Position numbers and translations under genes: made by a program. A DNA stretch of 47,813 nucleotides from positions 1-47,813 of the forward strand of contig NZ_JAJOMA010000040.1 in NCBI RefSeq assembly GCF_021129235.1. Reading direction: 5' to 3'. This document shows positions 127-35,239 of the stretch, piece by piece. This DNA is from Kineosporia mesophila (GTDB taxonomy: Bacteria; Actinomycetota; Actinomycetes; Actinomycetales; Kineosporiaceae). A model generated the notes under the pieces. It did no database searches and was not told the origin of the DNA. It saw only the letters and a program-made list of their open reading frames with translations. Positions within the stretch are counted from its first letter, which is position 1, and every line of letters starts with the position of its first letter.

Positions 127-169
127 TGTGTACACATGGTACATCCGGTACCACGTGTACCTTTTGTAC
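127..169 (+). promoter_or_regulatory. Orphan GTAC-array operator, second copy of the toxin-antitoxin operator
   Basis: This 43-nt segment matches 38 of 43 positions of the segment just before the antitoxin gene at 34666. Both copies carry five GTAC tetramers starting at offsets 4, 13, 22, 31 and 40, an exact 9-bp spacing. All five differences fall between the tetramers. TGTACA-type cores are the known operator element of YefM-YoeB systems. Here no antitoxin or toxin reading frame follows, so the site is orphaned. It may be a relic of a lost module or a spare binding site for the remaining antitoxin. Confidence 0.65.
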
Positions 170-34498: not shown

Positions 34499-34521
34499 GG
34501 GCAGCACCTACCGATGTCACG

Positions 34522-34548
34522 ACGGCCGGCCCGGTGGCCGTTTCTCTT
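34522..34548 (+). terminator. Terminator after the VOC gene
   Basis: ACGGCC (34522-34527) and GGCCGT (34536-34541) form a 6-bp stem with an 8-nt GC-rich loop, followed by TTTCTCTT. Confidence 0.5.
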
Positions 34549-34622
34549 GAGGCCCCACGGGAATCACCCAGAAATCGCGGCACTCGGGGTACGGAGGATC
34601 TCATGACGAAGCACTGATCGAT

Positions 34623-34665
34623 TGTGTACACACGGTACATCCGGTACCCGATGTACCGTTTGTAC
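34623..34665 (+). promoter_or_regulatory. GTAC-array operator of the toxin-antitoxin module
   Basis: Five GTAC tetramers occur at exact 9-bp steps (starts 34626, 34635, 34644, 34653, 34662), and the last one touches the antitoxin ATG. Several sit in TGTACA or GGTACC contexts. YefM-type antitoxins are known to bind TGTACA palindromes, so this is the likely autoregulatory site. Because the array runs into the start codon, the promoter overlaps it and the mRNA may be leaderless. A near copy lies at 127-169. Confidence 0.75.
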
Positions 34666-34974
34666 ATGATTGATCTACCTCGTCGGTCTGTCCGGGACGT
34701 CCGCGAGCGACTGGCAGACGTGGTGGACGAGGCCTGTCACGACCGGCCCACCGTGATCACCCGCCGAGGCAGGCCCGTGGCGGCCCTCGTCCCGATCGAC
34801 ACCCTGCGGCGCTACCTCGAGCTCGAAGAACGCGAGATCAACCGCATCATCGACGAGCGGATGTCCGGGCACCTGCAGAATGAGGACGAGAGCGGGGAAG
34901 CGGGCGGGCGGACTCCGGCCGGAGCCGTCCCCCTGGAGACCGTCCTGCGCGAAACCGTCTCTCGTGCAGAGTGA
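34666..34974 (+). CDS. Type II antitoxin, Phd/YefM family
   Basis: A 102-residue antitoxin. The N-terminal Phd/YefM DNA-binding domain is clear: SVRDVRERLADVVDEA, then RPTVITRRGRPVAALVPIDTLRRYLELEE. The C-terminal third is charged and probably disordered until it wraps the toxin. ATG 34666 starts directly after the operator with no ribosome site, pointing to leaderless translation; an upstream in-frame GTG (34624) would translate the operator itself and is unlikely. Its end overlaps the toxin gene by 11 bp. Confidence 0.9.
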   Translation: MIDLPRRSVRDVRERLADVVDEACHDRPTVITRRGRPVAALVPIDTLRRYLELEEREINRIIDERMSGHLQNEDESGEAGGRTPAGAVPLETVLRETVSRAE

Positions 34975-35239
34975 TTACCAGACGTTGGTGATGCCCGCAG
35001 CCCGCGGGGAACTGGCACGGGCCTCGCGGGCTGCGGCCCTGCGCATCCTGAGGAGCCTGATCGATCTCGAGACCGATCCTTACGGTTTCTTCTCGTCCGG
35101 GCCGGTCCCCTTCTCCTCCCGACCGGAACGTCGCATGCTGCAGGTGGGCGACCATCGGGTGGTCTACACGATCGAGCGGCAACACATCGTCGTCTGGACC
35201 GTGCGAACCACCGGGCACACGCCTGAGCCAGAGCAGTAA
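34964..35239 (+). CDS. Type II toxin, RelE/ParE superfamily
   Basis: A 91-residue toxin. The core reads SRPERRMLQVGDHRVVYTIERQHIVVWTVRTTGH, matching RelE/ParE proteins (RxLRVGDYRVxYxI...VxVxxVxxR). The helical N-terminus LARASRAAALRILRSLIDL also fits. Likely an mRNA interferase (RelE-like) or a gyrase inhibitor (ParE-like); the sequence alone does not decide. GTG 34964 lies inside the antitoxin gene, so translation is coupled. Confidence 0.87.
   Translation: MQSDYQTLVMPAARGELARASRAAALRILRSLIDLETDPYGFFSSGPVPFSSRPERRMLQVGDHRVVYTIERQHIVVWTVRTTGHTPEPEQ

Follow-up and report, generated by a model that had tools for sequence, protein, structure and literature searches.

A probable toxin-antitoxin operator built on a 9-bp lattice in Kineosporia mesophila, with a half-site that recurs in scattered palindromes

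What is the role of five GTAC motifs placed exactly 9 bp apart against the start codon of an antitoxin gene, and does such an array belong to that gene alone? The array lies in a contig of Kineosporia mesophila (NZ_JAJOMA010000040.1), all 47,813 nucleotides of which were analysed and are called the window here. Its rungs start at 34626, 34635, 34644, 34653 and 34662; rung 5 ends at 34665, and the antitoxin ATG occupies 34666-34668. Direct reading and a pattern search both reproduced these positions and the contact with the ATG, as given in a preliminary description of the sequence. We think it likely that the ladder is the 9-bp-lattice operator-promoter of a Phd/YefM-ParE gene pair and that, in Kineosporia, its half-site has also been scattered as recognition units devoid of a promoter. 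The features concerned are the following:

34626..34665, + strand: five-rung ladder, (GTAC-N5)x4-GTAC, predicted antitoxin operator and imperfect palindrome; the lattice is kept upstream of homologues.
34654..34659, + strand: TACCGT, -10-like box overlapping rung 4 and ending 6 nt before the ATG; TANNNT occurs in 23/26 upstreams.
34666..34974, + strand: antitoxin, 102 aa, Phd/YefM family (PF02604), by profile match.
34964..35239, + strand: toxin, 91 aa, ParE/RelE superfamily (PF05016), by profile match; the gene pair is kept in relatives.
130..169, + strand: second five-rung ladder, operator-like and asymmetric, found with a 3-rung pattern.

As a type II module the gene pair is ordinary: the genes overlap, and the pair is conserved across genomes. 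The antitoxin scores 45.6 bits against PF02604 (curated cut-off 29.8) and 36.7 bits against TIGR01552 (cut-off 20.8), while the toxin, which appears to start at a GTG overlapping the antitoxin end, scores 26.4 bits against PF05016 (curated cut-off 23). Against the Txe/YoeB equivalog the toxin reaches 14.6 bits, below the cut-off of 51.8, and the pair is therefore not assigned to canonical YefM-YoeB. Structure prediction for the antitoxin gave a low-confidence model (mean pLDDT 63.8, pTM 0.32). The 15 top-ranked PDB entries for this model are all antitoxins (prevent-host-death, Phd, YefM, RelB or VapB) or complexes containing them, with a best E of 0.036 and none at or below 0.001. A search of the PDB with the antitoxin sequence gave no match, nor did searches for it on plasmids and on phages. 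Matches to three Kineosporia homologues start at residue 1 of the 34666 start. In the antitoxin alignment, M1 is in part there by construction, as ATG starts were chosen.

The ladder is not a product of chance. A 3-rung pattern matches six times in the window, three times in each of the two five-rung ladders, and never in 100 dinucleotide shuffles of the window. Across the whole genome it matches 90 times per strand versus once for a reversed control, and a 42-bp form of the ladder, allowing up to 3 mismatches, matches 33 times (31 of them outside the window) versus 0 for the control. These shuffles and reversed controls rule out a chance origin; the ladder is real and far above expectation, yet not unique to the antitoxin gene. 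The second ladder in the window is close in sequence to the first; it has TACCTT where the first has its -10-like box, and TCG in place of ATG. No antitoxin or toxin remnant was found beside it (best E 0.14 for the antitoxin and 0.020 for the toxin). By eye, tandem GCTCGCGATGTCTGGG-like units lie near this ladder, at about 300-362, and short tandem repeats of CGGCT units occupy the contig start (1-48).

Conservation before homologous genes ties the lattice to the antitoxin. The genus sample comprised six genomes (G000, that of the window, to G005, with G004 from the sister species). The antitoxin is present in G000, G001, G002 and G003, with no match at E 1e-3 in G004, whose assembly is about 99% complete, or in G005. 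In all four antitoxin-bearing genomes the lattice can be followed by eye at -31, -22, -13 and -4. G000 has GTAC in every register, plus one at -40; G003 reads GTAC/GGAC/GTAC/GTAC, G001 GTAC/GGTC/GTAC/GTAC, and G002 GTAC/GAAC/GTAC/GTCC, the lattice there running upstream to -49. Five exact rungs are a peculiarity of the window copy; its relatives have 2-4, and the middle rung is often degenerate. At the nucleotide level the three other Kineosporia loci match the 31-40 kb region of the window over the gene pair alone, one of them, L096, over no more than the antitoxin; the genomic contexts of the Kineosporia loci thus differ.

A motif-blind sample was drawn by searching an antitoxin profile against 394 genomes of the class, 34 of which, spanning 12 of 138 genera, gave a match. 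Of the 38 profile matches 30 had loci, and dropping the window's own, L175 and L183 (no usable start) left 27, to which three Kineosporia homologues were added (n = 30 upstreams, the window's own excluded). Exact GTAC pairs stand 9 bp apart in 9 of these upstreams, 18 in 13, 27 in 3 and 36 in 1; off the lattice, pairs occur at 10 bp in 1, 14 bp in 3 and 28 bp in 1. A 3-rung ladder with at least 10 of 12 matches is found at spacing 9 in 18/30 upstreams, as against 0-3/30 at spacings of 6-8 and 10-15 and a mean of 0.065 (maximum 1) in mononucleotide shuffles of the upstreams; 12/30 miss this threshold. The preliminary description had staked its reading on the 9-bp ladder being conserved before orthologous antitoxins, and it is. 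Three distant antitoxin relatives (L191, L192 and L194) form another spacing class, with GTAC pairs separated by 14 bp.

The operator half-site, GTGTACACNTGGNNCANNNGGTACC (25 bp), follows the same gene. Scanned in one genome per species, it occurred in 35 stretches, 29 of which contain the antitoxin by tblastn and 28 the toxin too. The others are one Streptomyces stretch that ends just past the antitoxin start, four Kineosporia stretches that do not contain the pair, and one stretch of a Bacteroidetes MAG, perhaps a chance occurrence. Streptomycetes have one half-site stretch per genome, nearly always at the antitoxin gene, and in the order outside the genus the half-site was found in 0/390 sampled genomes.

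The array also appears to contain the promoter. For this comparison L184 and L191-L194 (distant, start uncertain) were also omitted, giving 26 family upstreams (22, the window and the three Kineosporia homologues). A TANNNT hexamer ends 6-7 nt before the ATG in 23 of them and is absent from three, against a farther-upstream background of 0.0033 per position, and its TAC mostly belongs to a GTAC rung. A Shine-Dalgarno-like motif is present in 1/26. In the streptomycete group TTGTGT-17-TANNNT occurs in 8/9 upstreams. In the window, a sigma-70 consensus scan of 34520-34720 found no full promoter. The placement of TANNNT and the rarity of Shine-Dalgarno-like motifs suggest that one and the same stretch holds operator, promoter and a probably leaderless start, as had been proposed from the window alone; the arrangement fits what is probably a leaderless promoter within the operator.

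Published YefM operators are described as paired palindromes with a TGTACA core, their centres 12 bp apart (PMC7730913, PMC4803016). The E. coli yefM-yoeB and Enterococcus axe-txe modules resemble the window pair in combining a Phd/YefM antitoxin with a ParE/RelE-superfamily toxin and in having TGTACA-type dyads over the promoter, but they use a 12-bp palindrome pair in place of the 2-6 rungs at 9 bp found here (PMC7730913, PMC4803016). The 9-bp arrays extend to the start codon or to within about 9 nt of it. The Streptomyces lividans/coelicolor yefM/yoeBsl module (SCO2235/2236), likened here by description and not by protein sequence, is an actinobacterial YefM module too; the S. lividans complex is reported to bind its own 173-bp upstream region, and the palindromes lie 12 bp centre to centre, in contrast to the 9-bp lattice (PMC3303803). 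The two TGTACA-core palindromes 12 bp apart that define canonical YefM-YoeB are not found in the window, which has the lattice instead. The genus sample contains 27 PF02604 loci, four of them the antitoxin studied here; among the 23 others, GTAC pairs 12-13 bp apart occur in seven (L098, L099, L100, L101, L103, L105 and L106) and not in 16, and a four-rung 9-bp ladder at fewer than 5/16 mismatches is absent from all 23. The departure from the published layout noted in the preliminary description is therefore borne out. No 9-bp lattice operator was found described in the open-access literature searched, within which it would count as a novel variant of the Phd/YefM operator.

Taken with the gene family, the lattice is very probably the operator of the Phd/YefM antitoxin. 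Each GTAC would be a small dyad, and antitoxin dimers, probably bridged by the toxin, would occupy neighbouring rungs 9 bp apart, covering both the -10 box and the ATG of what is probably a leaderless mRNA and so providing autoregulation. A 9-bp step amounts to about six sevenths of a helical turn, and a row of dimers would therefore coil around the DNA, a point of geometry and not evidence. Of this scheme, the lattice and its conservation, the position of the -10-like box and the gene families are observed; the choice of rungs by the dimers, their cooperativity and leaderless transcription are inferred. The filament-like binding suggested in the preliminary description is hypothetical.

The half-site is not confined to this operator. 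Outside the window, G000 carries 33 ladder sites, all intergenic (L020-L052; 31 of the 33 rows of the 42-bp pattern plus two four-rung sites), and G004 carries 39 (L053-L091; 39 rows, two of which are one site, giving 38, plus one four-rung site). A relaxed palindrome pattern found three sites each in G001 and G003 and none in G002 or G005, and sites flanked as in G001 and G003 also occur in K. babensis and K. rhizophila records. The consensus of the scattered sites, CGTTGT-GTACACCTGGTACATCCGGTACCGGATGTACCAGGTGTAC-ACAACG, is fully palindromic over its 52 bp; it is the operator half-site mirrored about GGTACC. In the symmetry analysis, which covered 44 of 48 unique sites, 26 of the 44 five-register sites are perfect 52-bp palindromes and 23 match the consensus over the inner 42 bp. 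Where the operator has its -10 box, 55/72 sites read TACCGG, and none of the 71 hexamers listed ends in T; the promoter is thus not kept in the scattered copies, which look like recognition units without one. The window copy differs from them in being asymmetric and in keeping its -10-like box. This palindrome family was not found described in the open-access literature searched. BOX elements are a dispersed repeat family. In S. pneumoniae yefM-yoeB a BOX-element sequence lies within the promoter region, a parallel in which a dispersed repeat family meets a yefM operator; the pneumococcal BOX, however, lies beside the operator, whereas the Kineosporia repeat consists of the operator half-site itself (PMC4803016).

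The placement of the palindromes is unlike that of promoter operators. None of the 72 scattered sites overlaps a gene called by our own caller, whose starts and small genes may err. Gap orientation, classed for 44 of 48 unique sites and compared with gaps from the fetched loci only, is skewed: convergent gaps are over-represented (12/44 sites versus 5/67 other gaps, Fisher p 0.007) and divergent gaps under-represented (8/44 versus 28/67, p 0.013); two further gene-calling thresholds gave the same tendency. In tandem gaps, 19 of 24 sites are closer to the 3' end of the upstream gene. Uneven placement along G004 was rejected, as 4 of 26 neighbour gaps are shorter than 25 kb against a uniform mean of 5.6. 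Two further genes of PF02604 type, at G000:C1:10170-10328 and G004:C1:222487-222636, are each some 0.8-0.9 kb away from a palindrome and have no ladder upstream. The preliminary assignment of the ladder to the antitoxin very probably holds for the copy at 34626-34665, where a PF02604 gene follows and homologues keep the lattice, but the 33 and 39 sites elsewhere, the latter in a genome with no detected antitoxin, make an antitoxin operator alone an insufficient account.

The scattered copies are also under constraint. Of the 33 G000 sites, 24 are at places shared with G004, three of them (L034, L043 and L048) aligned by one flank alone. Over 22 of the 24 pairs (four-rung pairs omitted) the 52-bp cores are 97.2% identical and the adjoining 60 bp on each side 65.4%; per-position counts drew on 67 of 72 sites. 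These pairs show 48 deviations from the consensus in G000 and 54 in G004, so that decay in G004, the genome with no detected antitoxin, is not evident. Where arms deviate, 41 of 78 deviating pairs are still complementary, against a mean of 6.8 and a maximum of 19 in shuffled arms. Rungs 2 and 4 vary as GTTC/GAAC or GGAC/GTCC, the same kinds of change as in the antitoxin operators, and the shared site L026/L067 differs by exactly one 9-bp unit (four rungs versus five). The six palindromes of G001 and G003 are not at the places used in G000 and G004, a single 81-bp match excepted. Individual sites show further features: the palindrome continues into site-specific arms of length 32-38 in L047, L082, L084, L065, L040, L021 and L089, the flanks of the pair L047/L083 differ between species, and L085 (~2477-2527; G004:C11:45175-45225) is an asymmetric six-rung site with one rung GGAC. 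Long stem extension was rejected as a general feature, arms of 29-38 being present in just 10/78 sites, and past arm position 27 complementarity is about that of swapped flanks.

What keeps these copies is a separate question. With 39 sites, no antitoxin match and 54 deviations against 48, this antitoxin was rejected as the keeper of the G004 palindromes, and some other factor probably maintains them there. It is possible, and we entertain it tentatively, that the scattered copies in G000 and G004 are read by a different DNA-binding protein, nucleoid or regulatory, whose site resembles the operator by shared ancestry or convergence. Such a reader is compatible with the operator reading of the window copy. 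It would explain palindromes that persist in G004, where the reader is probably not this antitoxin, as well as an antitoxin in G002 that is accompanied by no palindromes, and the invariant positions reflect sequence and not symmetry alone. On the other hand, the antitoxin also occurs in three of the four palindrome-bearing species, the 25-bp half-site is common to operator and palindromes, and no candidate gene for another reader has emerged. A bolder proposal, which we regard as rather unlikely, takes the 33-39 mostly mirrored and promoter-dead operator copies as a constrained network, in which an antitoxin-derived or look-alike protein would multimerise along the ladder and the copies would serve as transcription-boundary or chromosome-organising sites near gene ends, even where the toxin-antitoxin pair is missing.

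Less probable still is that a dispersed intergenic palindrome, a REP-like or terminator-like hairpin, came first, and that the antitoxin ladder is a copy that landed beside the gene or was recruited by it. The 33 and 39 sites in two species, the complementary changes (41/78), the preference for convergent gaps and upstream 3' ends (19/24 in tandem gaps) and the avoidance of divergent gaps agree with such an origin, as does the 24-pair DNA hairpin (z -9.5) of the consensus copy. In streptomycetes, however, the lattice precedes the antitoxin, and the single half-site stretch scanned per genome is nearly always at this gene; the window copy is asymmetric and keeps its -10 box. A Y1 transposase accompanies many REPs, not all. 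The REP-type Y1 transposase (PF01797) is in neither G000 nor G004 and in one of the six genus genomes, G001, and repeats driven by it were rejected for the former two. A classical intrinsic terminator was likewise rejected, as a T-rich tail (at least 5 T in 8 nt) accompanies the stem on 1/144 palindrome sides, and so was a known RNA family, with no Rfam match in 6 loci. Like REPs, the Kineosporia copies are short intergenic palindromes repeated within one genome (0/72 in called genes, 26/44 perfect) (PMC12306157, PMC2817692, PMC3733652). REPs usually exceed 100 copies (PMC2817692), whereas the Kineosporia copies are 52-bp near-perfect palindromes numbering 33-39, with cores that are nearly the same from site to site; G000 and G004 have no Y1 transposase, and by eye the consensus has neither a GTAG nor a CGTC tag. 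The near-fixed primary sequence makes protein binding likelier than a hairpin by itself, but a hairpin role would also fit the symmetric changes and the preference for 3' ends.

That the ladder is a coding artefact is hardly credible: a 9-bp step does equal three codons, and from GTG 34624 there is an open frame, with YTRYIRYPMYRLY preceding the ATG and ORF 34624-34974 running across the ladder, but GGTACC stands 8 nt from the ATG in some streptomycetes and 9 nt from it in others, which shifts the reading frame relative to the ladder, the matches of the three Kineosporia homologues start at residue 1 of the 34666 start, and the other ladder sites lie outside called genes (0/72 overlap); coding periodicity was rejected on the first two grounds.

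The operator-promoter reading bears on how Phd/YefM repressors work, since these are a model for the tuning of operator occupancy by toxin level and the operators described for them have two sites at a 12-bp spacing. With its 2-6 rungs and a probably leaderless start, the conserved lattice may offer a natural series in which the number of rungs, their helical phase and bridging by the toxin can be compared. The palindromes, for their part, pose the question of whether toxin-antitoxin operator sequences can become independent genome-wide sites; were the network proposal true, a toxin-antitoxin recognition code would have left its operon.
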